Shown one piece after another: positions 39,872 to 64,000 of a DNA stretch of 64,000 nt. The stretch's first letter is position 1. Each line of letters opens with the position of its first letter. The notes beneath the pieces are model-generated. The model saw only the letters and a list, made by a program, of their open reading frames with translations. It was not told the DNA's origin and made no database searches. Origin of the DNA: Desulfosediminicola ganghwensis (GTDB lineage Bacteria; Desulfobacterota; Desulfobulbia; Desulfobulbales; Desulfocapsaceae); NCBI RefSeq assembly GCF_005116675.2, contig NZ_CP050699.1, positions 1,945,001 to 2,009,000 of the forward strand. Direction: 5' to 3'. The translations under genes were made by a program, and so were the position numbers.

Positions 39872-40581
39872 GGTGTACCTGTTGTCGGAAATGACCTGTT
39901 TCCTGCCTCCCGTAATAATTGGAGAGAGCTCATTTAAAAGAGAACGATGAGCAGGCTGTTCCAATTGAGTCATTGTAACTTTATTTACCTGTATCCAGAC
40001 ATAAATGTCGGTTGATGGTTTTTGTGCAAATTGTAACGTCGCAACGATTCGTGGTGGAAAAGGGTGCACTTTTGCTATTTCATTCAATAGCTCGCTGCTT
40101 GATGGAAATTAGAAACCTTGGTTTCATAAATTGCACCTTGTGCAATTATCTCCGTAGTGGTGCGGGTTTCAGGAAACCGGACGAGTTTAAAATTGTATAC
40201 AGATATTGTCTTTAGGCTGTTGTGGGCTGGGATTTCTGATGTTTCATCGTGTTTGGCTGAGATGAGTGGATTGGAAACGTCTATGACACTAATAGGTGAA
40301 AATGACAGTAATGCTATTTGAGCAAGACTATCAATGGATTGTAGAGCTTCAAAAGAGTCTGTGGGTTAAGGGGAAAGTTACTCCTCGGGCGGTATCTGCC
40401 ACGCTGTGACACAATGAGAAACGAGGTTTCTAAAAAAAGAAAAGCAAATAAGACGTAAATACAGTCACTTAGAATGTTTCTTGTGTAAGTGTTCAAAATA
40501 ACAGCTTGAAAGTGCGTTAAGCGAGTGGTAGTTTGCCCTGAATTTAGTCAACCAGGCACATTTTGCACAATGGGAACAATA
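39872..40581. other. Long leader region upstream of the hydrogenase/Hdr operon
   Basis: About 710 AT-rich bases without a supported ORF. At 40112-40178 three short hairpins follow each other: GAAACC/GGTTTC (40112-40125), AATTGCAC/GTGCAATT with a 3-base loop (40129-40147), and GGTTTC/GAAACC (40165-40178). The first and third arms are mutually complementary, so alternative folds are possible. I found no convincing sigma-54 or sigma-70 promoter. Confidence 0.45.
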
Positions 40582-41061
40582 ATGCGCTCAACAATGATTT
40601 TTGGATGTGGAAATGAAATTATGGGTGATGACGGATTTGGTCCGGCTGTCATTGCAGAACTGCATAACAAACACACCCTGCCTGATGGAGTACAAGCCGT
40701 TGATGCTGGTACGCAGGTCAGAGAGTATCTCTTCGATTATGTTTTAAGTGAAGAAGAGCGACCGGAATCAATTATAATCATAGATGCGGTTGATTTCGAA
40801 GGAAAAACTCCCGGTGATGTTTTTCGTATCCACCCCATCGATATTCCTCCCAAAAAAATCCACGATTTTTCACTTCACCAATTTCCCACAGTAAATCTTC
40901 TGCACGAACTCGAACAGCACACTGGTATCCGCGTAGTCATCATAGCGGGCCAGGTTCAATATATACCGGAGGAAATTGCTCCGGGTTTGACCCCAGCGAT
41001 GTCTGCTGCCGTTCCTGTGGCATGTGAACATATAATTCACATTCTTTCTGAACAAAAGTAA
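40582..41061 (+). CDS. Hydrogenase maturation protease (HyaD/HycI family)
   Basis: 159 residues from ATG 40582 (GGGAA 6 bases upstream; GTG 40525 and ATG 40570 are alternatives). It starts with IFGCGNEIMGDDGFGPAV, the family motif GxGNxxxxDDGxG whose Glu/Asp bind the nickel of the pre-processed large subunit. A second metal-binding acid, DA, lies in VQAVDAGTQ, and IIIIDAVDF follows. The enzyme cuts the C-terminal extension after the DPxxxCxxH motif once nickel is inserted. It is the first gene of the operon whose last subunit gene, mvhA, keeps a 23-residue extension after that His, its obvious substrate. The HdrD-like gene starts 15 bases later. Confidence 0.88.
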   Translation: MRSTMIFGCGNEIMGDDGFGPAVIAELHNKHTLPDGVQAVDAGTQVREYLFDYVLSEEERPESIIIIDAVDFEGKTPGDVFRIHPIDIPPKKIHDFSLHQFPTVNLLHELEQHTGIRVVIIAGQVQYIPEEIAPGLTPAMSAAVPVACEHIIHILSEQK

Positions 41062-41076
41062 TTGAGGTGACCGTTT

Positions 41077-42528
41077 ATGATGTACGAATTTAAAGTCAGT
41101 GAGCTGGCCGAGGAATTTGGAGTACATCGGAACACCATAAGAAACTGGATTAACGCCGGAACTCTCTCTGCAAAAGAGGGACCAGGACGCAAGTATCTTA
41201 TGAGGTTTCAGGACTACCAGGCCCTCTGCGAGAAGTTTGGTCGCGAGCCCCTTGTCCGCCCTACCAGCCATGTTGATTTAAAAGCAGTTAAACCGATTGA
41301 AAAGATTGAAAGCGAACAGATCCTGCTCAATGATACCTCAAGCGACTTGGTGCTTGATCCATCATGGGCCGATTCGTGTCTCACCTGTGGATCCTGCTCG
41401 TCCGCTTGTCCGATTGCCGGTGTCGACGGACTCGACCCGCGTAAGATCGTCCGTATGGCCAATTTTGGTATGGATAAGGAGCTGGTTGATTCCAGCTGGC
41501 CGTGGAAATGCACTATGTGTGGCAAGTGTGAAGAGGCCTGTCCTGCCAACATTCAGATCGTAGCACTGATGCGGAAAATTCGTGGGACCAGGGATAGAAA
41601 CCAGGTTCCCGGACCTATCCACAAAGGTGTGCAGATGTGCCTCGAGCGCGGAAACAACCTCGGTATCCCCAAAGACGATTTCGTCTTCCTGTTGGAAGAT
41701 CTTGGCGAAGAACTCGCTGAAGACGAATGTCCTGGGTTCGTGACCCCTGTGGATGTACACGGTGCACGGGTATTGGTAACGGTGAACTCAAAAGAGCCGT
41801 TTGCCGAGCCGGATGACATGAAGTGGTGGTGGAAGATTTTCTACGCCGCCGGTGAGTCCTGGACCATCGCCTCTGAACACTGGGAAGGCGTTAACTGGGG
41901 CCTGTTCTCCGGTGATGACGAATCGATGAAAATCGTTGTCGGCCGCATCGTCGACAACATGCGTAGGCTGAACTGTAAGGTTCTGCTACTACCCGAATGA
42001 GGCCACGCATATTTTGCAACCCGGTCCGGGTTGACCAAATGGTTTCCAGAGGCTCTCAAAGAATTCAAGATTGTCACAGTATTCGATCTCCTGCTCGAGT
42101 ACATCCGTGAAGGACGTATCGAGCTTGACAAGTCTGTGCACAACGTTCCCCTCGCGTACCATGACCCTTGTAACTACGGGCGTAAATCCCTCAAGGCTTT
42201 TGGCCAGGGATACTTTGAGGAAGGACGTGAAGTAGCAAGTGCCTGTGCGGATGACGTACGCGAACTGAATCCAAATAGAAACGGTGCATATTGCTGTGGT
42301 GCCGGTGGCGGTGCCTGGGCAATGCCTTACGCCGAAGAGCGTGTATTTTATGGACGTATCAAGGCCCGTCAGATCACAGAGTCAGGTGCTGAGCTTATTG
42401 TCGCGCCATGCCATAACTGTCGCGACCAGATCATGAAATCGCTCACTAAGGAATATGATCTGGATATTGAGGTGAAATACCTCTGGGAGCTGGTGGCGGA
42501 TTCGCTCATCATCCCGAAAAAACAGTAG
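41077..42528 (+). CDS. HTH-HdrC/HdrB fusion (HdrD-like) selenoprotein, Sec308
   Basis: 483 residues if the in-frame UGA at 41998-42000 is read as selenocysteine 308. Domains: a MerR/excisionase-type helix-turn-helix (residues about 3-55, FKVSELAEEFGVHRNTIRNW), then two [4Fe-4S] motifs CLTCGSCSSACP (about 104) and CTMCGKCEEACP (about 146) as in HdrC. Two CCG-type modules as in HdrB/HdrD follow. In the first the usual PECGHAY reads PE-U-GHAYFATR; the second is complete (HDPCNYG, YCCGAGGG, APCHNC). Without recoding the protein would lose its whole second CCG domain. The GTCC-looped hairpin right after the UGA fits a SECIS. It likely supplies the thiol/disulfide-reducing site of the complex. Confidence 0.88.
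42018..42032 (+). promoter_or_regulatory. SECIS element of the HdrD-like gene
   Basis: AACCCG (42018-42023) and CGGGTT (42027-42032) form a perfect 6-bp stem with loop GTC, 17 bases after the UGA, the distance and G-U apical loop expected for SelB binding in bacteria. Confidence 0.8.
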
Positions 42529-42626
42529 TGCTCACAAGGCGCAACTGAAATGAGGCAAGAATTTGATGCACAGTTCGGAAGTTCCCGGGCTGTGCAGGCA
42601 ACATATATTAAGAGGAGACACCTATC

Positions 42627-45600
42627 ATGCTGGACAATAAGATTGGGTCGGTGATGATCGTGGGTGGCGGTGTCACGGGTATGCAGGCTGCCCTGGACCT
42701 TGCCGACTCCGGATACTATGTCTACCTGATTGAAAAATCAGGGGCCATCGGCGGTGCCATGGCCCAGTTGGACAAGACCTTCCCTACCAACGATTGCTCG
42801 ATGTGAATCATCGCGCCAAAATTGGTGGAGTGCGGTCGGCACTTGAATATTAAACTGATGACTTTAAGTGAAATTACCGCCATCAATGGTGAAGCTGGTA
42901 ATTTTACTGTTACTGTAAAAGAAGAGCCACGTTATGTGGACATGGACAAATGTATCGCCTGTGGAGCATGTACCGATAAATGCCCCAAGAAGGTGGACAG
43001 CGAGTATGATGCTGCCACCGGCAAGCGCAAGGCGATCTATGTTAAATATGCTCAGGCAGTACCGCTGAAGTATCAGATCGATCCGCACAATTGTATCAGA
43101 CTCAAAAAGCCTGGTGCCTGTGGGTTCTGTGAGAAGGTCTGTGATGCCGGTGCGATTAACTTTGATGATACTGAGAAAATTCATGAGGTGAACGTCGGTG
43201 CGGTAATCATGGCTCCTGGTTTTGAGGCCTATGATCCGAAAGATGCAGGCGTCTGGGGTTACGGTGATTATCCCAATGTTATTACCTCGCTGCAGCTTGA
43301 GCGTTACCTTTCGGCTTCAGGCCCGACCGAGGGTCACCTGATCCGTCCTTCCGACAACAAGCCGGTCAACAAAGTTGCGTTCCTGCAGTGTGTCGGCTCC
43401 CGTGACGAGAACCTGTGCGGGAACGGTTACTGCTCTTCCGTATGTTGTATGTACGCCCTGAAAGAGGCGGTGATTGCCAAGGATCACGTTCCCGGCATTT
43501 CCACTTCCATTTTCTATATGGATATGCGTACCCACGGTAAAGAATTTGACAGGTACATGGATCGCGCCAAGAACGAGTCCGGCGTCCGCATGGTTCGCTG
43601 TAAAGTGAACGGTGTTGAGCCTGCAGGTGATTCCGGTGACCTGAGACTATCTTACGTGAATGAGCAGGGCCGTCAGATCGAGGAATACTATGATCTGGTA
43701 GTGCTCTCCGTAGGCCTTCAGACCTCCAAGCAGATGCTGGGCCTTGCAGACGTTGCAGGCATCCAGCTGACCGCCGATAAGTTTGCCGCCACCTCGGATT
43801 TTGCGCCTGTTACCACTTCCCGCGAGGGTATTTTTACCTGTGGTGCTTTCGCAGGGCCCAAAGATATTCCCCAGTCGGTTGTTGAAGGCTCTGCAGCGGC
43901 AGCAGCCGTTTCCCAGGTCCTGGCCCCAGCCCGCCATGAACTCTCCACAGAGGCAACCTTTCCTGAAGAGCGTGATGTCAGCAAGGAAGACCCACGTCTT
44001 GGTGTATTTATCTGCCATTGCGGTTCGAACATTGCCGGCACAGTCGATGTGGCCGCTGTAGAAGAATATGCGGCGACCCTGCCGAATGTTGTTTACGTGG
44101 AAAGAAACCTGTTCTCCTGTTCCCAGGATACTCAGGACATGATCGTCAAGAGGATCAAGGAGCAGAATCTGAACAGGATCGTCATTGCGGCCTGTACCCC
44201 GCGTACCCACGAGCCGTTGTTCCGCGAGACCTTAAAGGCAGCTGGCCTCAACGAATACCTGGTGGAGATGGCCAATATCAGGAATCACAACTCCTGGGTA
44301 CACTCCGATACTCCGAAGCTAGCCACCGACAAAGCCAAGGATCTGGTTCGCATGGCGGCGGCAAAAGTCACCTACGGCACTTCATTGAAGCCGTTCAATG
44401 TACCAATTACCCAGAAAGGCCTTGTCGTCGGTGGCGGTGTCTCCGGCCTGACCTCCGCCTTGAACCTTGCCGAGCAGGGCTTTGAGGTACATCTGGTTGA
44501 GCGTACTGACACTCTCGGTGGTAATGCCCTGCATCTGCAGGACACCTGGAGTGGAGAGCATATCCCGACCAAAGTCGCCAAGCTGGTCGATGCGGTTACC
44601 TGGAATGAGAAGATCATCATTCACAAGGGATTTGAGGTGAAAACGGTTGATGGCTTTGTGGGTAACTTCAAGACCACCATCAAGACCAAAGATGGTCTTG
44701 CCAAGACCATCGAACATGGTGTCGGCATTATCGCAACCGGTGGCTCAATTTACTCACCCATTGAGTACGGCTATCGCAAGATCAAGAAAGTTGTTACCTC
44801 CATCGAATTCGATAAGCTGCACGAGCTGAAAGAGACTCACGTACGAAACGCCAGTACATTTGTCTTCGTTCAGTGTGTCGGTTCCCGCGAAGGTGACGTC
44901 AACTACTGCTCAAAAGTCTGCTGTACTCACTCTGTACAGAGCGCGATCGAGCTCAAGAAAGAAGATCCGAAACGTAATGTTTACATCCTGTATCGTGATA
45001 TGCGTACCTACGGACAGCGTGAAGCGTTGTACCGGCAGGCTCGTAAGATGGGTGTTATCTTCATCAACTACGAGCTGCACGGTAAGCCGGAGGTTGAGGC
45101 GCGCGGTGAGAAGATCGACGTCAGTGTCTGGGATCACGTACTCCATCGTCCGCTGAAGATCGAGGCTGACATGGTTATCCTCGCATCTGCCATCCGACCG
45201 AAGGAAGATGCCAAGAAACTGGCCCAGATCTTCAAGGTACCAGTGGATGGCGATGGTTTCTTCCTTGAGGCCCATGCGAAGCTGCGACCGGTAGATTTCT
45301 CTACCGATGGTATGTTCGTTGCCGGTCTGGCCCATTATCCGAAGCCGATGGAAGAGTCAGTAGCCCAGGCCCTGGCAGCGTCTTCACGTGCTGCGACCCT
45401 GCTCTCCAAGCTCGACATCTCCATGGATGCGGTCAAAGCCAATGTTGATGCCGAAAACTGCGACGGCTGTGCCCTCTGTATCGACGTCTGCCCATACCAC
45501 GCTATCAGCCTGGAAGACGTTGCAGGCACCGAGAAGAAAATCATTTCGGTGAACAAGGCCAAGTGTAAAGGTTGTGGCCTTTGCCAGGGAACATGTCCGA

Positions 45601-45674
45601 AACGTGGTGTCTTTGTAGGCGGCTTTACCACGAAACAGATTAGCAGTCAGATTCAGGCGGCCCTTGCAGTATAG
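42627..45674 (+). CDS. hdrA: Long HdrA flavoprotein, selenoprotein (Sec60)
   Basis: 1015 residues with the UGA at 42804-42806 read as Sec60, in [20 protein letters not shown] where HdrA/Qmo proteins have Cys. The upstream 59 codons hold the dinucleotide fold [17 protein letters not shown], and AGAGGAGA precedes ATG 42627. Order: first FAD module with [14 protein letters not shown] (about 109) and CGFCEKVC (about 165). Then a second HdrA-like unit begins [11 protein letters not shown] (about 459) with FAD fold [11 protein letters not shown] (about 597). Two C-terminal ferredoxin motifs follow, [12 protein letters not shown] (about 945) and [12 protein letters not shown] (about 980). It is thus a partly duplicated HdrA, about 350 residues longer than the methanogen form. 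HdrA carries the flavin that bifurcates electrons between ferredoxin and the disulfide branch. Confidence 0.93.
42829..42843 (+). promoter_or_regulatory. SECIS element of hdrA
   Basis: AGTGC (42829-42833) pairs with GCACT (42839-42843), extendable by a G-U pair, loop GGTCG containing the GGUC core known from E. coli fdhF. It starts 22 bases after the UGA. Confidence 0.78.
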
Positions 45675-45729
45675 GGGGCCCCTGGTCGATGCTGAACGTA
45701 AACAGTGAATGTAACAAGGAGTAAAGCAA

Positions 45730-46149
45730 ATGAGTTTTGAGCCTAAGATCATTGCATTCTGCTGCAACTGGTGCTCCTATGCCGCTGCTGATCTTGCGGG
45801 TATTTCCAGGATGCAGTATCCGCCAAACGTGCGGATTATAAGGGTAATGTGCTCGGGTATGGTTAATCCCGAGCAGGTTCTGGACGCGCTGAATCAAGGT
45901 GCGGACGGAGTTATGGTACTCGGCTGACACCTCGGTGAATGTCATTACCTGGATGGTAATTATAAAGCGATGAGTCGATCCGATATGATCAACACCCTGC
46001 TTGAGGACTTCGGATTCGAAAGTGAAAGATTTCAGATTGCCTGGGTTTCCTCGGCGGAGCCGGACAAGTTTGTAGCAGCTGTGACTGATATGACCAAACG
46101 TGTCAAGCAGTTGGGCCCGATTAACAGTCAAAGTGCCGAGGCGGCATAA
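45730..46149 (+). CDS. mvhD: MvhD electron-transfer subunit, selenoprotein (Sec66)
   Basis: 139 residues when the UGA at 45925-45927 is read through as Sec66. The N-terminal part has [15 protein letters not shown] and RVMCSGMV, the cysteine set of the [2Fe-2S] MvhD/VhuD family. The recoded position lies in the otherwise invariant [17 protein letters not shown], where relatives have GCHxGxCHY. Downstream sequence ([28 protein letters not shown]) is typical of the family, so the UGA is not a true stop. MvhD passes electrons from the hydrogenase to HdrA. SD AAGGAG precedes the ATG. Confidence 0.93.
45944..45960 (+). promoter_or_regulatory. SECIS element of mvhD
   Basis: ATTACC (45944-45949) and GGTAAT (45955-45960) form a 6-bp stem with loop TGGAT, starting 17 bases after the UGA. 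The loop is identical to that of mvhA. Confidence 0.75.
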
Positions 46150-46159
46150 GGAGGTTGAG

Positions 46160-47107
46160 ATGGGAGTTACTACTGCTTTAGAGTGGCTGGGGTCCTGTTC
46201 CGGCTGTGAGATCGCGATCCTCAATATCGGTGAGGATCTGATCCCCATTATTACCGAGGCGCTGGATATTGTTCATGCCCCGGTCCTGATGGATCATAAA
46301 TATTTTGGCCAGACGGGTGAGGGCACAGTGCTCACGATCCCCAAGGCCACGGTTGGTATCGTTACCGGTGGTGTAGCAAACCACGAGCATCTCGAGGTGC
46401 TCGAAGAGATGCGCGCCAAGTGTGATGTACTGATCGCCCTCGGTTCCTGTGCTACCCACGGAGGTATCCCGGCGCTGATGAACGGCCAGGACCTGAAGGA
46501 GAGCTGGGAAGATATTTTCAAAACACCCACCACCGATCCAGGTGCGGAGATCCCCACCATCGAAGTACCCGCACCGTTGGATCGGGTTTACGCCTGTGAT
46601 GAAAAGGTCAAGATCGACCTGCAGTTACCGGGTTGCCCACCTAACCCGGCCCATATCGCGGAAGTGATCTTTTCTCTTCTTGAGAATCGTGATCCTGTAC
46701 TGCCCACCAAGTCTGTCTGCGATAGTTGCCCTGCCAAGCGTGAGGGCAAAGGTGAAGTGAAAGAGATCAAGCGCTTCACCAAAAATGCCAAGTTCAACCC
46801 TGAGGAACCTATCAGCGAGATGCGTTGTCTGCTCGAGCAGGGCTTCCTCTGTCTTGGACCGGTAACCGCAGCCGGCTGCGCCAAGCGTGGTGCGCCCAGC
46901 TGTATTTCCGCGCGCGTTCCCTGCCGCGGTTGTTTCGGCCCCGTACGTAAAGACGGCAATCAGCTGCTTGATATGATGAATGCCCTCGCCAGTAACGGGA
47001 TTGATTTTAAATCAGTGGAAGACAGACGCTCCATTCTGCGCTTCTCCGGCGCCCATGGATTGCTTAAGCCACTGAAAAAACGTGTAGCAGTAGAGGAGGA
47101 GGCGTAG
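46160..47107 (+). CDS. mvhG: [NiFe(Se)] hydrogenase small subunit MvhG
   Basis: 315 residues from ATG 46160, preceded by TAAGGAGG; a longer frame to 46100 overlaps mvhD and is not used. No Tat signal, so cytoplasmic. Cluster ligands: LGSCSGCEIAILN (proximal), GSCATHGG, LPGCPPNP, CDSCPAKREGKG, and a C-terminal set CLEQGFLCLGPVTAAGC ... CRGCFGP. This is the F420-non-reducing/Mvh type small subunit with three Fe-S clusters that wire the active site to MvhD. The next gene starts one base after its stop. Confidence 0.94.
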   Translation: MGVTTALEWLGSCSGCEIAILNIGEDLIPIITEALDIVHAPVLMDHKYFGQTGEGTVLTIPKATVGIVTGGVANHEHLEVLEEMRAKCDVLIALGSCATHGGIPALMNGQDLKESWEDIFKTPTTDPGAEIPTIEVPAPLDRVYACDEKVKIDLQLPGCPPNPAHIAEVIFSLLENRDPVLPTKSVCDSCPAKREGKGEVKEIKRFTKNAKFNPEEPISEMRCLLEQGFLCLGPVTAAGCAKRGAPSCISARVPCRGCFGPVRKDGNQLLDMMNALASNGIDFKSVEDRRSILRFSGAHGLLKPLKKRVAVEEEA

Positions 47108-47108
47108 T

Positions 47109-48557
47109 ATGGGAACTGTACTTAACATAGCTCCAGTCTCCCGCATTGAAGGACACGCGAAAATCGCCATCCATCTCGACGATGGTGGCAATGTGGAGGA
47201 TGCTTTCCTCCACATCCAGTCCCTACGCGGGTTTGAAAAATTTATTGAGGGGCGGCCTGCTGAAGAGGTCCCTCGCATCGTTAACAGGATCTGTGGTATC
47301 TGTCCCTGGATGCATCATCTGGCTTCCAATAAAGCGGTTGATGGTGCCTTTGGCGTTACCCCGACCCCGACAGGTCACAAGCTGCGTGAAATGTGCCAGG
47401 TAATGGCACATATCAACGACAAGATCCTGCACTTCTTCTTCCTGGCCTCTCCTGACTTCGTGCTTGGCCCGGATGCGGACTATTCGGTTCGAAACGTTAT
47501 TGGTGTGGCCAAGGCGGCGCCAGAGCTGGCTACCCAGGTTGTTAAAATGCGTCAGCTCGGCCAGATGATGCTGGAGCGTTTTGCCGGCAAGGCTATTCAC
47601 CCGATCGCCGGTGTGACTGGAGGTTTTGCCAAGCCTCTTCTTGAGAGTGAGCGTCAGGAGTTGTTGAAAGACACACGCACTCTCCTCGACTTCTCCCTCT
47701 ATTCCCTCGATTTCGCCATCAATAACGTTTTTTCAAAGTATATGGACGTTATCAGCGAGCTTGGGAACATTACCACAGGCTTTCTGGGTACCGTCGACCG
47801 TGAAGATGGTTCTCTTCGCATCTATGACGGCAAACAGCGTTTGATGAAGCCTGACGGAAGCTATATTGATTTCGAAGGCGAAGAGTATGCGGATCATCTC
47901 GGTGAGCATGTTGAGCCGTGGGCATATTCCAAGATGCCGTATGCCAAGTCCTGGAACGAGGGTTTTGATCTGAATCTGGCGGCGCCTAAAGGTATCTACC
48001 GTGCAAATACCCTGGCCAGAATCAACGTTTGTGACAAGATCTCCACCCCGCAGGCCAACGCGGCGCTACAGCAGTTCCGTGAACAGTTCGGCAGACCTGC
48101 CCAACAGACTCTGCTCTATCATTATGCCCGTCTGATCGAGATGGTTTACGCCTGTGAGCGCACCATCGAGATTCTCGAGTGGGAAGGCATCACAGATACG
48201 AACATCCGTGCCAAGGTAGAGCCGAAAGCGGGACGCGGTGTGGGTATTGTTGAAGCTCCACGCGGTACCCTGATCCATGATTATGTAACCGATAAAAACG
48301 GTTGTATTGAGAAAGCGAACCTGATTGTGGGCACCACTCACAATATCGCGCCAATGAATATGAGCGTGAAGCAGGCTGCAACTTCCCTGATCAAGGATGG
48401 AAACTACAATGAAGGGTTGCTCAACCAGGTAGAGATGGCCGTCCGGGCCTACGACCCCTGAATGTCTTGTGCCACCCACCGCCTGGATGGCGGTGTACCT
48501 GTATCAGTATCCATCATCGACTCCGAAGGTAAGGAAGTTGATTCGTTAACCAACTGA
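47109..48557 (+). CDS. mvhA: [NiFeSe] hydrogenase large subunit MvhA, Sec451
   Basis: 482 residues when the UGA at 48459-48461 is read as Sec451. The N-terminal nickel-binding motif RICGICPWMHH is intact. The C-terminal motif reads AYDP-U-MSCATH, i.e. DPCxxCxxH with Sec in the first position, exactly as in [NiFeSe] hydrogenases where Sec ligates nickel. After the His, 23 residues (RLDGGVPVSVSI...) form the extension removed by the maturation protease encoded at the operon start. Stopping at the UGA would delete two of four nickel ligands. It oxidises or makes H2 in the cytoplasm. A terminator follows. Confidence 0.95.
48477..48495 (+). promoter_or_regulatory. SECIS element of mvhA
   Basis: CACCGCC (48477-48483) pairs perfectly with GGCGGTG (48489-48495), loop TGGAT, beginning 16 bases after the UGA. 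Confidence 0.82.
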
Positions 48558-49250: not shown

Positions 49251-50306
49251 TTGAGAGATCCGGGACAGTTGCTCGAAAGGCTGCACGAACTTGTCGATAG
49301 ACCGATGCGAATCATGGTTGTGTGCGGTTCTCATAATCAGGCGATTATGCGGTATCGACTGCGTGAAAAACTTCCGAAGAAACTGCTATTGGTGTCAGGC
49401 CCCGGGTGCTCGGTATGTGTAATGCCGGCAGGCCATATAGATGCTTTTGTAAAAGTTGCACTTAAACGCGATGTAATTACAGCTGCTTGCGAAGATTTAT
49501 TGCAGGTCCCGGGTAGTCGTGAATCTTTGGCTTCCATCCGGGAGAAGGGTGCCAGGGTAGAAGTCATAACTTCGCCCAGGGAGTGTCTTGAACTCGCCCG
49601 CTCAGAGCCTGATAAGACGATTGTTTACCCTGCGGTAGGTTTTGAGGCCACTGCACCATCCGTTGCAGAGACTATTTTAGAGGCAGCCAGCGAGGGGATA
49701 GACAATTTCTGCGTTATCCCATCCATCCGTCTGCTTCCACCAACCATAGATACGCTCCTCCGCGACCCTGATCTGGATCTCGATGGTTTGCTCTGCTCTG
49801 ATCACGTCACCACCATATCCGATACTGAAGCGTATGCAGCGCTCGCCAAAAAGCATGATCTCTCCTGTTGTATCGCAGGATTTGATGAGAGTGACATTAT
49901 TCGCGGTCTGATCGCCATGGTGACCCAGATTCAACACGGGGTTTCATTGTTTGACAACAGTTCTGCAGTAATCTATTCATCTGAAGAAAATCAGAATGCG
50001 CGTCGAATGGTGTCGGAGGTCTTCTTTGCCGTGGATACAGCCTGGCGAGGCCTTGGTACCATCGCTGAAAGTGGATTCATCATTCGTGATGAATTGGCGC
50101 TTTATGACGCTACCAGGCGCTTTAATGTACGCTTTTCAGAAGGGCAGGAACGTTGTGCCTGCCACTGTGATATGATCATCTCCGGCCGCGGATTGCCGCC
50201 AGACTGCCCATCTTTTGGTATGGCTTGTACTCCGCAGAACCCGATCGGACCATGTATGATCTCCAGTGAGGGGATTTGCGCATCCTATTTTAAATACAAT
50301 CTGTAA
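49251..50306 (+). CDS. hypD: Hydrogenase maturation factor HypD
   Basis: 351 residues from a TTG at 49251 (GAAGGTGAT upstream). HypD landmarks: MVVCGSHNQAIMRY (near residue 20), LVSGPGCSVCVMPAGHID, YPAVGFEATAPS, and C-terminal cysteines in GQERCACHCDMIISGRGLPP and CMISSEGICASYF that bind the [4Fe-4S] cluster. With HypC it builds the Fe(CN)2CO centre of [NiFe] hydrogenases. The other hyp genes are not in the window. Its position just downstream links it to the MvhA subunit above. Confidence 0.96.
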   Translation: MRDPGQLLERLHELVDRPMRIMVVCGSHNQAIMRYRLREKLPKKLLLVSGPGCSVCVMPAGHIDAFVKVALKRDVITAACEDLLQVPGSRESLASIREKGARVEVITSPRECLELARSEPDKTIVYPAVGFEATAPSVAETILEAASEGIDNFCVIPSIRLLPPTIDTLLRDPDLDLDGLLCSDHVTTISDTEAYAALAKKHDLSCCIAGFDESDIIRGLIAMVTQIQHGVSLFDNSSAVIYSSEENQNARRMVSEVFFAVDTAWRGLGTIAESGFIIRDELALYDATRRFNVRFSEGQERCACHCDMIISGRGLPPDCPSFGMACTPQNPIGPCMISSEGICASYFKYNL

Positions 50307-54988: not shown

Positions 54989-56822
54989 CTGTAGAAAAAG
55001 GTATTGGTCATAGCAATATCAGGCATTTAGGGTTATATTTAGCTTCATTCGATGGTAATCAACCCCTTAACCCTGCCGAAAGTCGGAAGCCATGGCCAAA
55101 TACAAGCCGTATTCATACGCTCAGGGGATGTTCATACCAGTATTCTTCAGTGAGCAGATACAAAAAGGGACTTTCGAGTACACCCTGAACTATCTGGTCG
55201 ATCACGAACTCGACCTTTCCATCTTTGATGCCAGGTTCACCAACGACGAAACTGGTGCCCCAGCCTATGACCCACGGATCTTGCTGAAGATTATCCTGTT
55301 TGCCTATTCACGAGGTATTACTTCTAGTCGTGCAATTTCCGAGTGCTGTGAAAAAAACATCCTTTTCATGGCCCTTTCAGCCAATACCAGACCCCACTTC
55401 ACAACAATTGCCAGTTTCGTTTCCAGTATGGACAAAGAGGTTGTCTCTCTCTTTCTTCAAGTACTGCTGATCTGTGACCAGCAGAACCTTATTGGCCGAG
55501 AGATGTTTGCTATTGATGGCTGCAAACTCCCAAGCAATGCCTCTAAGGAATGGAGTGGCACCAAAGCCGATTTGACCAAAAAGGTTGAAAAGATAGAGCG
55601 AGCTCTGCACAGAATGATCATCCGTCACAAGTCCATGGATCTTGAGAAGATAGAGCCGGAAGTTCGGGATCATGAAGAGAAATATAAGAAGAAACTACAA
55701 AAAAGTGCTGCCAAGATAAGGGATTGGCTGAAAGACCATGATGACCGACGTGGCAGTGGCGGCAAACCGGTTAAATCAAACATTACCGATAATGACTCTG
55801 CCAAGATGGCCACATCGAAAGGGGTAATACAGGGGTATGTCGGTGTTGCCTCAGTGGACAAGAAGCACCAAGTCATTGTTGGAGCAGAAGCCTATGGGCA
55901 GGGCAGTGAGTCCAATCTCCTTGTACCTTCGCTGAAGTCGATACAGTCTAACTTGGAACAGATAGGCGACCAAGATGTATTTGGTAAGGCCAAAGTTGTA
56001 GCGGATAGCGGTTATCATTCCGAGAAGAATCTCGAGTACCTCTATACAGAGAATATAGATGGGTATGTTGCGGATACTCGTTTCCGCAAACGAGATCCTC
56101 GCTTTGCCACAGCGGAGCGCTATAAAGATCTCCCCGCTTATCACTTTGCGACCAGGGCCGGTGGAAAGCGACTCTTTCGGCCTGAACATTTTACTTTCGC
56201 TGATGATTTGAGCCACGCTATTTGTCCGGCCGGCAAGAAACTCTACCGCAATGGCTGCAACGCCAAGGTGAAAGACTATCAGGCCTACAAGTTTAAAGGA
56301 GCTAAGCGAGACTGCCTCCCATGTCAATTGCGACGTGAGTGTTTACGAAAGCCAGAGAAAACCGAGGCCCGTCAGCTAGCTTACTTTCCGGGGAAAAAGC
56401 GTAACGGTAATGAGCGATTCACAGAGAAGATGAAACGAAAGATTGATTCAACCATTGGTCGAGCAATCTATGGCATGCGACTCGCTGTTGGTGAGCCACC
56501 CTTTGGCCATATACGGTCAACCATGAAACTTGATCGATTCAGTCTTCGAGGAAAACGAAAAGTGAATGCGCAGTGGAACCTGTTCTGCATGGTCCATAAC
56601 CTGAAAAAGATCCACTCGTATGGAGCGGTAGTAGGCAGCTGACAGGTAGATCGTAGAGGAGAATAGTTCCAAGAATGTTCACAAATGGACTTGAGGGCAA
56701 ATAGAGCAAGGTAAAGAACAAGTGGAATCGAAATAGGCGGCTAGGAAAGTAGATTTTTGGAACCCTCCTGAAATCGGTTGAGGGAATCTTCGGGATTTTG
56801 AACTGCCTTTTTCTACAGGCTC
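54985..56822 (+). mobile_element. IS1182-like insertion sequence, copy A (1838 bp)
   Basis: Ends GAACCTGTAGAAAAAGG and, at the right, CCTTTTTCTACAGGCTC form a 17-bp inverted repeat with one mismatch. It is flanked by GTT on both sides (54982-54984, 56823-56825). It sits in an attC core. Confidence 0.92.
55092..56642 (+). CDS. IS1182-family transposase, copy A
   Basis: 516 residues. An N-terminal DUF772-type helical domain (YDPRILLKIILFAYSRGITS) is followed by a DDE core: FAIDGCKLPSNA (first D), a long charged helical insert (about residues 155-215), and VVADSGYHSEKNLEYL (second D). A cysteine knuckle cluster (CPAGKKLYRNGCN, CLPCQLRREC) and the C-terminal catalytic region RFTEKMKRKIDSTIGRAIYG come last. 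It is identical residue for residue to copies B and C. Confidence 0.94.
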   Translation: MAKYKPYSYAQGMFIPVFFSEQIQKGTFEYTLNYLVDHELDLSIFDARFTNDETGAPAYDPRILLKIILFAYSRGITSSRAISECCEKNILFMALSANTRPHFTTIASFVSSMDKEVVSLFLQVLLICDQQNLIGREMFAIDGCKLPSNASKEWSGTKADLTKKVEKIERALHRMIIRHKSMDLEKIEPEVRDHEEKYKKKLQKSAAKIRDWLKDHDDRRGSGGKPVKSNITDNDSAKMATSKGVIQGYVGVASVDKKHQVIVGAEAYGQGSESNLLVPSLKSIQSNLEQIGDQDVFGKAKVVADSGYHSEKNLEYLYTENIDGYVADTRFRKRDPRFATAERYKDLPAYHFATRAGGKRLFRPEHFTFADDLSHAICPAGKKLYRNGCNAKVKDYQAYKFKGAKRDCLPCQLRRECLRKPEKTEARQLAYFPGKKRNGNERFTEKMKRKIDSTIGRAIYGMRLAVGEPPFGHIRSTMKLDRFSLRGKRKVNAQWNLFCMVHNLKKIHSYGAVVGS

Positions 56823-57229: not shown

Positions 57230-59063
57230 CTGTAGAAAAAGGTATTGGTCATAGCAATATCAGGCATTTAGGGTTATATTTAGCTTCATTCGATGGTAAT
57301 CAACCCCTTAACCCTGCCGAAAGTCGGAAGCCATGGCCAAATACAAGCCGTATTCATACGCTCAGGGGATGTTCATACCAGTATTCTTCAGTGAGCAGAT
57401 ACAAAAAGGGACTTTCGAGTACACCCTGAACTATCTGGTCGATCACGAACTCGACCTTTCCATCTTTGATGCCAGGTTCACCAACGACGAAACTGGTGCC
57501 CCAGCCTATGACCCACGGATCTTGCTGAAGATTATCCTGTTTGCCTATTCACGAGGTATTACTTCTAGTCGTGCAATTTCCGAGTGCTGTGAAAAAAACA
57601 TCCTTTTCATGGCCCTTTCAGCCAATACCAGACCCCACTTCACAACAATTGCCAGTTTCGTTTCCAGTATGGACAAAGAGGTTGTCTCTCTCTTTCTTCA
57701 AGTACTGCTGATCTGTGACCAGCAGAACCTTATTGGCCGAGAGATGTTTGCTATTGATGGCTGCAAACTCCCAAGCAATGCCTCTAAGGAATGGAGTGGC
57801 ACCAAAGCCGATTTGACCAAAAAGGTTGAAAAGATAGAGCGAGCTCTGCACAGAATGATCATCCGTCACAAGTCCATGGATCTTGAGAAGATAGAGCCGG
57901 AAGTTCGGGATCATGAAGAGAAATATAAGAAGAAACTACAAAAAAGTGCTGCCAAGATAAGGGATTGGCTGAAAGACCATGATGACCGACGTGGCAGTGG
58001 CGGCAAACCGGTTAAATCAAACATTACCGATAATGACTCTGCCAAGATGGCCACATCGAAAGGGGTAATACAGGGGTATGTCGGTGTTGCCTCAGTGGAC
58101 AAGAAGCACCAAGTCATTGTTGGAGCAGAAGCCTATGGGCAGGGCAGTGAGTCCAATCTCCTTGTACCTTCGCTGAAGTCGATACAGTCTAACTTGGAAC
58201 AGATAGGCGACCAAGATGTATTTGGTAAGGCCAAAGTTGTAGCGGATAGCGGTTATCATTCCGAGAAGAATCTCGAGTACCTCTATACAGAGAATATAGA
58301 TGGGTATGTTGCGGATACTCGTTTCCGCAAACGAGATCCTCGCTTTGCCACAGCGGAGCGCTATAAAGATCTCCCCGCTTATCACTTTGCGACCAGGGCC
58401 GGTGGAAAGCGACTCTTTCGGCCTGAACATTTTACTTTCGCTGATGATTTGAGCCACGCTATTTGTCCGGCCGGCAAGAAACTCTACCGCAATGGCTGCA
58501 ACGCCAAGGTGAAAGACTATCAGGCCTACAAGTTTAAAGGAGCTAAGCGAGACTGCCTCCCATGTCAATTGCGACGTGAGTGTTTACGAAAGCCAGAGAA
58601 AACCGAGGCCCGTCAGCTAGCTTACTTTCCGGGGAAAAAGCGTAACGGTAATGAGCGATTCACAGAGAAGATGAAACGAAAGATTGATTCAACCATTGGT
58701 CGAGCAATCTATGGCATGCGACTCGCTGTTGGTGAGCCACCCTTTGGCCATATACGGTCAACCATGAAACTTGATCGATTCAGTCTTCGAGGAAAACGAA
58801 AAGTGAATGCGCAGTGGAACCTGTTCTGCATGGTCCATAACCTGAAAAAGATCCACTCGTATGGAGCGGTAGTAGGCAGCTGACAGGTAGATCGTAGAGG
58901 AGAATAGTTCCAAGAATGTTCACAAATGGACTTGAGGGCAAATAGAGCAAGGTAAAGAACAAGTGGAATCGAAATAGGCGGCTAGGAAAGTAGATTTTTG
59001 GAACCCTCCTGAAATCGGTTGAGGGAATCTTCGGGATTTTGAACTGCCTTTTTCTACAGGCTC
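57226..59063 (+). mobile_element. IS1182-like insertion sequence, copy B (1838 bp)
   Basis: Same length, ends and orientation as copy A. Flanked by GTT at 57223-57225 and 59064-59066. The lines of sequence compared show no differences from copy A. Confidence 0.92.
57333..58883 (+). CDS. IS1182-family transposase, copy B
   Basis: 516 residues, identical to copy A, starting 107 bases inside the element as in the other copies. Intact, therefore presumably active. Confidence 0.94.
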   Translation: MAKYKPYSYAQGMFIPVFFSEQIQKGTFEYTLNYLVDHELDLSIFDARFTNDETGAPAYDPRILLKIILFAYSRGITSSRAISECCEKNILFMALSANTRPHFTTIASFVSSMDKEVVSLFLQVLLICDQQNLIGREMFAIDGCKLPSNASKEWSGTKADLTKKVEKIERALHRMIIRHKSMDLEKIEPEVRDHEEKYKKKLQKSAAKIRDWLKDHDDRRGSGGKPVKSNITDNDSAKMATSKGVIQGYVGVASVDKKHQVIVGAEAYGQGSESNLLVPSLKSIQSNLEQIGDQDVFGKAKVVADSGYHSEKNLEYLYTENIDGYVADTRFRKRDPRFATAERYKDLPAYHFATRAGGKRLFRPEHFTFADDLSHAICPAGKKLYRNGCNAKVKDYQAYKFKGAKRDCLPCQLRRECLRKPEKTEARQLAYFPGKKRNGNERFTEKMKRKIDSTIGRAIYGMRLAVGEPPFGHIRSTMKLDRFSLRGKRKVNAQWNLFCMVHNLKKIHSYGAVVGS

Positions 59064-59661: not shown

Positions 59662-60714
59662 TTATCCTGATCTGCCGTAGTCGAATCGAAAGCGTATCAC
59701 CAGCATAGCCGCCTTGCATTTTGGGCAGGAATACTTTGGCCTTTGCCGCTGTTTTGGCACTATTGGGGTAAAGACATGCAGTATAAGCTGAATGAGGGTT
59801 CTGATTTTTCTGGCATTGGCGTGCAGAAAACCGTAATCCCGCACGCGTCTGAAGCCTCTCGGCAGGACATGCTTGACCAGGATGTTCAGGAAATCCTCTG
59901 CTTTTACTGTGGAATATCTTAGCTCATCAGTCCTACTGTCACGGTACTTGAAAGTGACATTTCCGTTGTGACTTGCCACAATATTTTTCTCGCTGATGAC
60001 GCCTCGATAGAGATATCTGGCCAGATATTTCAGGGCCGGGAAGCCATTGCCCACGCATTCACAATGGGCAACCCACTTTTCAGGCAGATTTTGAGGCAGG
60101 GACAGGCCTGTTGATTTCAGCATGTCGAGGAATTTGCCGCGGAAGGTTTTGGCCAGGGCAAATCCATTGAAGAGATAGTCATTTTTCACCTTTCTCCACT
60201 TGCCGAATCGTTTATCTATACCGCCGCCAGGGATGAGTACATGAATGTGGGGGTGAAACGAGAGGTCTCGCGCGTGGGTGTGCAGGATCATGGTCATGCC
60301 GATCTCCGCTCCAAGATGTTTTGGGTTCGCAGCAAAGGATCTAAGGACTTCAGCGACGCATTTGAACATCAGGGAATAGACAGTTTTCTGGTGCCCGTAT
60401 GCCAGGTATCGCAGTTCATATGGTAAGGTAAAGGTGGCCAGGAAGTAGGGGACCGGCATGAGCTTCGCCTGCTGTTTATCAAGCCAGGAACTGGTCTGGT
60501 GATTGAGGCAGGTTGGGCAGTGGCGGTTGCCGCACGAGAGGGGGCGCCATTCTCCATGCTGGCAATCAGGGCATCGTGCATAGAGTTCGCCAGATTGAGG
60601 GGTTCGACACTGCTGTATGTCCCTCAAAGCCCTCAGTTGCTCTGGGATGGCATTGCCGCCATGACGAATCATGTACAGGTCGAAGTATTTGTTGATGAGT
60701 GATTTAATGTCCAT
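59662..60714 (-). CDS. IS91-family transposase (HUH, Zn-binding N-terminus)
   Basis: 350 residues. The N-terminal zinc module [20 protein letters not shown]...C is typical of IS91/ISCR transposases. The HUH motif is [12 protein letters not shown]. The catalytic tyrosine region is [18 protein letters not shown]. The C-terminus ends with a second cysteine pair, CPKCKAAML. It nicks one strand and moves the element by rolling-circle replication. Its start overlaps the end of the frameshifted recombinase by 11 bases. Confidence 0.92.
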
Positions 60715-61620
60715 GTTGCTTCCTCGTTGGGTTCAGCTCCATGGAATTGATCAGCTCGTTTATGGTGGCAATGCTATCCTTTTCCGCGGTGTAGGTGAGC
60801 TGGGCGTAACGGGCAGTGGTTGTGGGGCTTGAATGCCCGAGAAGTTCCTGGATGTGGCGAAGGCTTAAACCCGCTTCGAGGAGGTGGGTGGCAAAGCTGT
60901 GTCTGAGGGAGTGGATGGAGACTTTTTTTTAATGTTACAGGCTGCAACCACCGCTTTCATGGCCTGCTGGGTGGAACCGATGTTCATGTGAGAGGTTGCC
61001 CTGATGATGGTTTCAGCAGAGCCTCTATAGTTTGGGAAAAGCAGCTTGGGATGGCGATGATCCTGCCAGAGAATGCGTAATGCCTTCAGGGTTCGATCAG
61101 GCAGTGGAACCAGACGATCTTTATGTCCTTTGCCTCTGCGGATATGTACCCGTCTGCGATTGGCATCGATATCTCCGATCTGTAAAGAAAGTGCTTCCTG
61201 TAAACGCAACCCCATGGAGTAAGTAGTAAAGAGAAAGACCCGGTAACGGAGTTTGCGCGTGTTGTGAACAAGTAAGGCAACTTCTTCTCTAGTAAGGATA
61301 TCCGGGATTGTTTTCACAGTTGGTGGCTTGACGATATTGAGCCATTGCCAGTCCTGCTCCAGGACGTGCTTCCAGAAGAACATCAGGCCGAGCCTGTCGA
61401 GCTTTACCGTACTCCAGGAATAGTTTTCTACCAGACGGGTAAAATAATCTTCGAGCTGCTCCACCGACAGTTGATCTGGGCAACAATCAAAATGTTCGGT
61501 AAGACGACGAACAGCCCGGGCATAGGCGCTGATAGTTGCCTGACTCTTGCCTTGAAGCGTAAGCTTTTTCAGGTGCCGATCGTAAAGGATTTCAAAACGT
61601 TTGGAATCTTTTGCCTTCAT
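60704..61620 (-). CDS. Tyrosine recombinase with a -1 frameshift at an A8 run
   Basis: The zero frame (61620 down to 60865) gives 251 residues: SAM-like N-domain, then the catalytic domain with Arg in [13 protein letters not shown] and [11 protein letters not shown]. It goes wrong after CNIKKK. Shifting -1 at the A8 run (plus-strand T8, 60923-60930) continues perfectly as [18 protein letters not shown], then [20 protein letters not shown], with the HxxR, H and catalytic Tyr, to a stop at 60704-60706, 305 residues in all. The run reads A_AAA_AAG in the zero frame, the dnaX-type slippery heptamer. So this may be programmed frameshifting or a simple indel. SD AAGGAG precedes the ATG. Confidence 0.82.
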
Positions 61621-62220: not shown

Positions 62221-64000
62221 CTGTAGAAAAAGGTATTGGTCATAGCAATATCAGGCATTTAGGGTTATATTTAGCTTCATTCGATGGTAATCAACCCCTT
62301 AACCCTGCCGAAAGTCGGAAGCCATGGCCAAATACAAGCCGTATTCATACGCTCAGGGGATGTTCATACCAGTATTCTTCAGTGAGCAGATACAAAAAGG
62401 GACTTTCGAGTACACCCTGAACTATCTGGTCGATCACGAACTCGACCTTTCCATCTTTGATGCCAGGTTCACCAACGACGAAACTGGTGCCCCAGCCTAT
62501 GACCCACGGATCTTGCTGAAGATTATCCTGTTTGCCTATTCACGAGGTATTACTTCTAGTCGTGCAATTTCCGAGTGCTGTGAAAAAAACATCCTTTTCA
62601 TGGCCCTTTCAGCCAATACCAGACCCCACTTCACAACAATTGCCAGTTTCGTTTCCAGTATGGACAAAGAGGTTGTCTCTCTCTTTCTTCAAGTACTGCT
62701 GATCTGTGACCAGCAGAACCTTATTGGCCGAGAGATGTTTGCTATTGATGGCTGCAAACTCCCAAGCAATGCCTCTAAGGAATGGAGTGGCACCAAAGCC
62801 GATTTGACCAAAAAGGTTGAAAAGATAGAGCGAGCTCTGCACAGAATGATCATCCGTCACAAGTCCATGGATCTTGAGAAGATAGAGCCGGAAGTTCGGG
62901 ATCATGAAGAGAAATATAAGAAGAAACTACAAAAAAGTGCTGCCAAGATAAGGGATTGGCTGAAAGACCATGATGACCGACGTGGCAGTGGCGGCAAACC
63001 GGTTAAATCAAACATTACCGATAATGACTCTGCCAAGATGGCCACATCGAAAGGGGTAATACAGGGGTATGTCGGTGTTGCCTCAGTGGACAAGAAGCAC
63101 CAAGTCATTGTTGGAGCAGAAGCCTATGGGCAGGGCAGTGAGTCCAATCTCCTTGTACCTTCGCTGAAGTCGATACAGTCTAACTTGGAACAGATAGGCG
63201 ACCAAGATGTATTTGGTAAGGCCAAAGTTGTAGCGGATAGCGGTTATCATTCCGAGAAGAATCTCGAGTACCTCTATACAGAGAATATAGATGGGTATGT
63301 TGCGGATACTCGTTTCCGCAAACGAGATCCTCGCTTTGCCACAGCGGAGCGCTATAAAGATCTCCCCGCTTATCACTTTGCGACCAGGGCCGGTGGAAAG
63401 CGACTCTTTCGGCCTGAACATTTTACTTTCGCTGATGATTTGAGCCACGCTATTTGTCCGGCCGGCAAGAAACTCTACCGCAATGGCTGCAACGCCAAGG
63501 TGAAAGACTATCAGGCCTACAAGTTTAAAGGAGCTAAGCGAGACTGCCTCCCATGTCAATTGCGACGTGAGTGTTTACGAAAGCCAGAGAAAACCGAGGC
63601 CCGTCAGCTAGCTTACTTTCCGGGGAAAAAGCGTAACGGTAATGAGCGATTCACAGAGAAGATGAAACGAAAGATTGATTCAACCATTGGTCGAGCAATC
63701 TATGGCATGCGACTCGCTGTTGGTGAGCCACCCTTTGGCCATATACGGTCAACCATGAAACTTGATCGATTCAGTCTTCGAGGAAAACGAAAAGTGAATG
63801 CGCAGTGGAACCTGTTCTGCATGGTCCATAACCTGAAAAAGATCCACTCGTATGGAGCGGTAGTAGGCAGCTGACAGGTAGATCGTAGAGGAGAATAGTT
63901 CCAAGAATGTTCACAAATGGACTTGAGGGCAAATAGAGCAAGGTAAAGAACAAGTGGAATCGAAATAGGCGGCTAGGAAAGTAGATTTTTGGAACCCTCC
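62217..64000 (+). mobile_element. IS1182-like insertion sequence, copy C (cut by window end)
   Basis: Same left end and internal spacing as copies A and B. At 1838 bp it would end near 64054, so the last ~54 bases lie outside the window. Confidence 0.92.
62324..63874 (+). CDS. IS1182-family transposase, copy C
   Basis: 516 residues, identical to copies A and B, complete within the window. Confidence 0.94.
   Translation: MAKYKPYSYAQGMFIPVFFSEQIQKGTFEYTLNYLVDHELDLSIFDARFTNDETGAPAYDPRILLKIILFAYSRGITSSRAISECCEKNILFMALSANTRPHFTTIASFVSSMDKEVVSLFLQVLLICDQQNLIGREMFAIDGCKLPSNASKEWSGTKADLTKKVEKIERALHRMIIRHKSMDLEKIEPEVRDHEEKYKKKLQKSAAKIRDWLKDHDDRRGSGGKPVKSNITDNDSAKMATSKGVIQGYVGVASVDKKHQVIVGAEAYGQGSESNLLVPSLKSIQSNLEQIGDQDVFGKAKVVADSGYHSEKNLEYLYTENIDGYVADTRFRKRDPRFATAERYKDLPAYHFATRAGGKRLFRPEHFTFADDLSHAICPAGKKLYRNGCNAKVKDYQAYKFKGAKRDCLPCQLRRECLRKPEKTEARQLAYFPGKKRNGNERFTEKMKRKIDSTIGRAIYGMRLAVGEPPFGHIRSTMKLDRFSLRGKRKVNAQWNLFCMVHNLKKIHSYGAVVGS

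Follow-up and report, generated by a model that had tools for sequence, protein, structure and literature searches.

The stretch of Desulfosediminicola ganghwensis DNA analysed here (64,000 nucleotides of contig NZ_CP050699.1, positions 1,945,001 to 2,009,000; hereafter the window) carries on one strand, the + strand, five genes in the order HdrBC (GlpC)-like gene, hdrA, mvhD, mvhG and mvhA. We consider it very probable (about 0.93) that these genes encode a cytoplasmic H2-linked Hdr-Mvh complex of this sulfate-reducing bacterium and represent a further member of a known four-selenoprotein operon. An earlier reading of the same letters, from here on the original prediction, had at its core one Hdr-Mvh operon with four selenocysteines (Sec), which is borne out by the gene order, the frames and the family matches.

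The original prediction placed UGA codons at 41998, 42804, 45925 and 48459, with conserved sequence resuming past each and a hairpin after each. All four codons were confirmed and are in frame, homology runs through all four sites, and hairpins start +17, +22, +17 and +16 nucleotides (nt) past them. Alignment with homologs containing cysteine (Cys), which had been proposed as a check, returned Cys at the aligned sites. It stands at the Sec60 position in two solved HdrA chains (5ODC, 8RVU; printed alignments), at the Sec66 position in two solved MvhD chains (8RVU, 8RVV; printed alignments) and at the Sec451 position in the MvhA chain of 9SW2, while the second MvhA alignment printed stops short of the site. 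For HdrBC, U308 falls opposite the first Cys of a CPHC motif that mycobacterial EtfD (9OJN) carries. The claim that each UGA replaces a conserved Cys thus holds against solved homologs for HdrA, MvhD and MvhA, whereas for HdrBC it holds against EtfD but not for some relatives without UGA, which have Ser, Leu or Thr. By sequence and alignment, Sec451 of MvhA occupies the first Cys position of the C-terminal DPCxxC nickel motif, a feature of [NiFeSe] hydrogenases. The terminator of mvhA is itself a UGA (48555-48557), and this codon thus doubles as a stop here. A codon-score scan of the window for further UGA genes listed three UGAs, none of them among the four known ones; it had no sensitivity and nothing was inferred from it.

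For comparison, the best 80 of 146 HdrBC relatives from named bacterial genomes were taken together with the window, giving 81 rows. The rows were gathered around this one gene and its near relatives, and in many of them a contig end truncates the locus or the operon's later genes are absent. The nearest HdrBC relative among those searched is that of D. flagellatus (90% identity). UGA is present at the HdrBC site in 67 of the 81 rows and at all four sites in 40.

The hairpins lie directly 3' of the UGA and are conserved where Sec is conserved, as in bacterial selenoprotein genes. Their pairs are counted in Table 1 over rows that share ancestry, so that the counts are not independent trials. 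In many rows the MvhA hairpin has its two outer pairs open, and the rows read at this site all have Sec, which leaves none for contrast. The apical loops in the window are GGTCC (HdrBC), GGTCG (HdrA) and TGGAT (both MvhD and MvhA). Wobble conservation was measured in Sec rows as the match to the window sequence at third positions of same-residue codons. Inside the hairpins it was 0.91 for HdrBC, 1.00 for HdrA, 0.99 for MvhD and 0.89 for MvhA, against 0.46, 0.51, 0.56 and 0.37, respectively, outside them (up to 90 nt). We read this excess as selection acting on the hairpins at the RNA level. The mean free energy of the 54 nt past the site separates Sec from non-Sec rows only in part, being -15.6 versus -12.6 for HdrBC and -12.8 versus -10.0 for HdrA, but -11.1 versus -14.0, in the wrong direction, for MvhD; the fixed pairs and the wobble counts are clearer.

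Table 1. Positions of the operon, its in-frame UGA codons and hairpins (selenocysteine insertion sequence, SECIS, type) and the adjoining maturation genes within the window
Feature	Position	Strand	Remarks
Hydrogenase maturation protease (HycI family)	40582..41061	+	PF01750 80.9 bits; TIGR00072 125.6 bits, above cut-off; directly 5' of operon
HdrBC-like (GlpC-like) selenoprotein	41077..42528	+	N-terminal helix-turn-helix, HdrC-like ferredoxin, degenerate CCG module with predicted Sec308, intact CCG module
UGA, predicted Sec308 of HdrBC	41998..42000	+	context LLLPE-U-GHAYF (UGH motif)
SECIS-type hairpin, HdrBC	42017..42033	+	CAACCC-GGTCC-GGGTTG; all 6 pairs in 57/67 Sec rows, 0/13 non-Sec rows
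HdrA selenoprotein, 1015 amino acids (aa)	42627..45674	+	two HdrA-type flavin halves on one chain
UGA, predicted Sec60 of HdrA	42804..42806	+	context TNDCSM-U (CxxU)
SECIS-type hairpin, HdrA	42828..42844	+	GAGTGC-GGTCG-GCACTT; all 6 pairs in 52/54 Sec rows, 2/13 non-Sec rows
MvhD selenoprotein, [2Fe-2S] subunit	45730..46149	+	PF02662 189.5 bits
UGA, predicted Sec66 of MvhD	45925..45927	+	context VLG-U-HLGEC
SECIS-type hairpin, MvhD	45944..45960	+	ATTACC-TGGAT-GGTAAT; all 6 pairs in 43/44 Sec rows, 2/16 non-Sec rows
MvhG, hydrogenase small subunit	46160..47107	+	no internal UGA; homologous to VhuG by family model
MvhA, hydrogenase large subunit with predicted Sec	47109..48557	+	PF00374; NF041785 VhuA 479 bits, below its cut-off of 800
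UGA, predicted Sec451 of MvhA	48459..48461	+	context DP-U-MSCATH (UxxC); nickel-ligand position
SECIS-type hairpin, MvhA	48477..48495	+	CACCGCC-TGGAT-GGCGGTG; mean 5.75/7 pairs in 52 Sec rows, all 7 in 8
HypD, hydrogenase maturation	49251..50306	+	TIGR00075 346.8 bits, above cut-off; 3' of operon after one short open reading frame

The Sec machinery was searched for in the genome, which is one contig (C1) of 5,653,142 bases. It contains a tRNA-Sec (selC; 75.4 bits, cut-off 47), selB (384.7 bits, cut-off 242) and two selD genes above cut-off, each with one in-frame TGA (C1 3466679-3467602 and 4914234-4915163). From the in-frame UGAs, the selection on the hairpins and the presence of SelB, tRNA-Sec and SelD, it follows that the four codons are predicted to be read as Sec.

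An operon of this kind, glpC-hdrA-frhD-frhG-frhA, was described in 2006 for Syntrophobacter fumaroxidans, which has three similar operons, and Desulfotalea psychrophila, and its selenoprotein families are GlpC, HdrA, FrhD and FrhA (PMC1794560). A 2026 review names it a four-selenoprotein-gene operon and gives the motifs UGH, CxxU and UxxC (PMC13188914). Compared by published description, the window has the same gene order, the same four selenoprotein families, the UGH motif of GlpC and a duplicated hdrA; the two HdrA halves form one chain in the window, which distinguishes it from the operon as described. UGA occurs in the counterparts of glpC, hdrA, frhD and frhA and not in that of frhG. The motifs PE-UGH-A (GlpC), CSM-U (HdrA, CxxU) and DP-UMSC (MvhA, UxxC) match those in the table of the review, but the CxxU given there for FrhD/MvhD is unmatched, since the MvhD of the window reads GUHLGEC with no Cys three residues before. 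The operon of the window is one more case of a kind published since 2006. The original prediction treated Sec forms of HdrA, MvhD/VhuD and the large subunit as known, which is correct for these parts, but the whole four-selenoprotein operon had already appeared in these two sources.

The archaeal hdrA-frhD-frhG-frhA operons and the HdrABC-MvhAGD complex (PDB 5ODC, 8RVU) have homologous HdrA, MvhD and MvhA, and MvhG resembles VhuG by model. Sec forms of these subunits have been reported in archaea (PMC9312934, PMC11227280, PMC1794560). In contrast to the archaeal complexes, where HdrB is separate and has two CCG modules, the window encodes a fusion of a helix-turn-helix (HTH) domain with HdrC- and HdrB-like parts, and each of its hairpins comes right after the UGA, the bacterial arrangement and not the archaeal one. 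In the sulfate reducer Desulfobacterium autotrophicum HRM2, a Sec HdrA1 is clustered with a Sec hydrogenase (hdrA1-mvhA2DG), the same combination of Sec HdrA and Sec hydrogenase as in the window. Unlike in the window, HysAB stands beside that cluster, and a Sec HdrD (hdrD4) is listed in the published account without being placed in the cluster (PMC2702500).

HdrA is one chain with two Rossmann halves, which 5odc_A matches in three stretches, out of order. It matches five solved Hdr-complex chains with E values from 1e-189 to 1.5e-158, and MvhD matches six solved chains (E 8.4e-52 to 3.4e-30); the two are partners within one gene cluster, as in the HdrABC-MvhAGD complex. The complex and its electron path can be predicted from this homology. 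MvhAG would split or form H2 at its nickel, one ligand of which would be Sec, the [2Fe-2S] cluster of MvhD would hand electrons to the flavins of the double HdrA, and HdrBC would pass them on to a thiol/disulfide or another partner. Ferredoxin would take part in a bifurcating or, reversed, a confurcating scheme, and given the homology of HdrA and MvhD, flavin-based bifurcation or confurcation with ferredoxin is likely. The flavin bifurcation of the original prediction likewise derives from the homology of these two subunits and is to be read as putative.

HdrBC combines, by domain models, an HdrC-like ferredoxin and an HdrB-like half in one chain. This architecture is common to it and the Fe-S subunits HmcF, TmcB, DsrK and EtfD. 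Its best family models are all below cut-off (HmcF 202 of 750 bits, TmcB 184 of 735, DsrK 140 of 400), and it lies so far below these curated cut-offs that it is none of the three proper. The best fold match of its structure model (mean predicted local distance difference test, pLDDT, 83.6) is EtfD, with Z 26.1 and a root-mean-square deviation (rmsd) of 3.0 over 367 aligned residues, while HdrB chains reach Z 18.8-19.9.

Canonical HdrB carries two complete CCG cysteine sets. The HdrB of HdrABC-MvhAGD has both and the HdrBC of the window does not, as seen in a cysteine census of 41 chosen rows out of 81; an HdrA match follows in 35 of these 41 and is lacking in 6. In the second CCG module C365, C406, C407, C445 and C448 are Cys in 41/41 rows. 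In the first, the CC site is not Cys and the second Cys of CxxC is replaced by Ala or Ser; the Sec308 site is Cys or Sec in 37/41 rows, and the non-canonical C300 is kept in 40/41. Judged by its residues, HdrBC is not a canonical two-cluster HdrB, because its first CCG module has lost its canonical cysteines except for the predicted Sec site. The original prediction spoke of a disulfide-reducing subunit. That subunit is an HdrC-HdrB-like fusion with only one CCG module intact, and its nearest proteins are HmcF, TmcB and DsrK by family models (all below cut-off) and EtfD by fold. The host has a further HdrBC paralogue (C1 3140434-3141624; 38% identity) with one in-frame TGA.

The HdrBC site is not UGA in 14 rows, where it is Cys in nine, Ser in two (L083, L090), Leu in one (L116), Thr in one (L119) and unreadable in one (L111). 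At the HdrA and MvhD sites, relatives without UGA have Cys codons throughout. All four sites are readable in 52 rows and, in the order HdrBC-HdrA-MvhD-MvhA with U for Sec and C for Cys, 40 of these are UUUU, six CCCU and three UUCU, with another residue at HdrBC followed by CCU in two and by UCU in one. The MvhA site was UGA in 52/52 rows read. The three Hdr-side sites can be read in 60 rows; 45 of these have Sec throughout, 11 have it nowhere and 4 are mixed. A quick tree of 70 rows was built from HdrBC, HdrA and MvhD with the Sec columns removed, and on it the state changes five times at HdrBC, five at HdrA and six at MvhD; on a 64-row tree, also a quick one, it changes five times at each. 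Both trees have long branches. Joint exchange was put to sign tests, which gave no significance, there being too few independent pairs (HdrA-MvhD 3/4; HdrA-HdrBC 4 to 5 of 5). The aligned codons suggest that the three Hdr-side Sec sites tend to change state together while the nickel-site Sec stays, the pattern being read without a direction (loss or gain). HdrBC was matched with at least 59% identity in 18 of 96 genomes sampled from the order (12 with one TGA inside, 6 with none), and the gene is therefore patchy in the order.

Several points weigh against a Sec-containing Hdr-Mvh complex. Both the complex and its Sec residues are predicted from sequences and models. Rfam at gathering scores matched no RNA family in the window, and the hairpins were for this reason assessed by comparing rows. 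Even without Sec, rows retain a mean of 3.1 (HdrBC), 4.4 (HdrA) and 3.9 (MvhD) of the six pairs, and the contrast between Sec and non-Sec hairpins is a matter of degree. One CCG cysteine set is absent from the HdrB-like half, which makes the electron acceptor only putative. Moreover, D. ganghwensis is reported, in the published account, without autotrophic growth by hydrogen oxidation (PMC8497536), and for this reason H2 may be an extra donor or sink in this host. Finally, neither selA (TIGR00474, PF03841) nor SepSecS (PF05889) was matched in the genome.

The original prediction had named selA, selB, selC and selD as genes to look for. The last three were found, but selA was unmatched by the two models and its expected place is masked by N. 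In the relatives search SelA was matched in 33 of 38 genomes, the host's own counted, and in 32 of them over the cut-off. A 722-aa gene comes after selA in a sister genome (G001), and its best match in the host (45% identity, C1 3920594-3922492) abuts a 7,500-base N run; the counterpart of this gene likewise abuts an N run in G003, the second genome of the genus in which SelA was unmatched. Since the syntenic neighbour abuts the masked stretch, we infer that the selA of the host is probably hidden there and not missing. An alternative route to Sec was also considered as the reason for the absent selA and was set aside, as SepSecS was not found and synteny led to a masked stretch where selA would be expected.

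A reading in which the UGAs really end translation or stem from faulty assembly, leaving the genes broken or shorter, would agree with the lack of a visible selA in this assembly. Identical UGAs nevertheless recur across many independent genomes, the conserved protein continues past every one of them and the hairpins are kept at silent positions, so that such a reading, which can hardly be correct, is practically refuted by comparison of these sequences. It is equally hard to credit that UGA is reassigned to Trp or Cys throughout the genome and not recoded locally as Sec. The frames would indeed stay open whatever residue UGA encodes, but mvhA itself terminates at UGA, tRNA-Sec, SelB and SelD are all present, complete hairpins accompany the UGA, and Cys is the aligned residue in most non-UGA relatives (9 of the 14 HdrBC rows and all at HdrA and MvhD).

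With Sec in place, the four-Sec set might still not bifurcate and be a plain reductase of disulfide (or another acceptor) with H2, or mainly form H2. The single CCG module retained in the HdrB-like half, the nearness of HdrBC to HmcF, TmcB and DsrK by models (below cut-off) and to EtfD by fold, and the reported lack of H2-dependent autotrophy would all suit such an enzyme, which we hold to be possible but the less likely case, as HdrA and MvhD closely resemble their counterparts in solved Hdr complexes. The joint change of the Hdr-side sites could, for its part, reflect exchange of a whole Cys-type gene cassette and not repeated codon change in place. Cys-type hdrBC-hdrA-mvhD clusters do share assemblies with four-Sec operons (L084 with L066, L086 with L071; metagenome-assembled genomes or uncultured bins). 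But the 13 rows with a non-Sec HdrA occupy five places on the 70-row tree, and forcing them into one clade was rejected on the Hdr tree (approximately unbiased, AU, test, p 1.4e-18). The two hydrogenase-bearing groups (L083 and L109), separated only weakly in the Hdr tree (p 0.038), again stand apart when MvhG+MvhA are used for a tree of their own (56 rows). An origin by cassette exchange is doubtful on these grounds.

The pattern amounts to a natural experiment, in which three Sec sites of one operon were seemingly lost (or gained) jointly in several lineages and the fourth is always UGA where read. It would let the role of Sec in HdrBC, HdrA and MvhD be asked apart from the nickel site. No title or abstract opening in the literature listings announces such a joint exchange, which is not a claim of absence. 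The Cys-type clusters of L084 (from 3005) and L086 (from 10001) have no mvhGA on the locus and may be selenium-free isoforms.

HdrBC also has an HTH_17 domain (41077-41260) fused to the N-terminus of this Fe-S electron-transfer subunit. PF12728 matches residues 6-45 with 33 bits (cut-off 27), and residues 1-55 of the model resemble a winged HTH, the nearest match being BldC (6ama_A) with Z 6.2 and rmsd 3.0 over 54 aligned residues, a Z below 8 being one that may reflect a mere common arrangement. The domain is borne by the 35 rows with HdrA behind (about half of them printed; the remaining matches start at residue 1 to 5). In ten more distant loci (L120, L122-L130) the HdrBC match does not begin before residue 77 and is not followed by a match to the HdrA of this operon, L128 having other weak matches there. 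Their in-frame sequence upstream is 47 residues at most, and no HTH domain was found in nine of the ten, L130 being cut by the contig end. No title or abstract opening in the literature listings announces the fusion, which again is not a claim of absence. An HTH domain on an electron-transfer subunit is a cheap and testable lead. As a speculation that we think improbable, HdrBC might be both redox enzyme and DNA-binding regulator. The first module would then be clusterless, with a lone Sec308 selenolate (perhaps with Cys300) forming a selenosulfide with a disulfide substrate, the three Hdr-side Sec would be tuned and exchanged as a unit, and the HTH would inform the operon that encodes it of the complex's redox state.

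Hydrogenase maturation genes adjoin the operon on both sides (Table 1) and count in favour of the Hdr-Mvh hydrogenase. The maturation protease models were run on 40525-41058, the open reading frame listing putting the start of this gene at GTG 40525. No tRNA was found in the window with ARAGORN. Further downstream, a gene for a 516-aa DDE transposase (PF13751, PF05598) is present in three near-identical copies within 9 kb (55092-56642, 57333-58883 and 62324-63874), which are 99-100% identical over a 300-nt reference stretch and 91-100% over a shifted one. Between the copies, an IS91-type Y2 transposase (59662-60714, - strand) adjoins a tyrosine recombinase (60865-61620, - strand).

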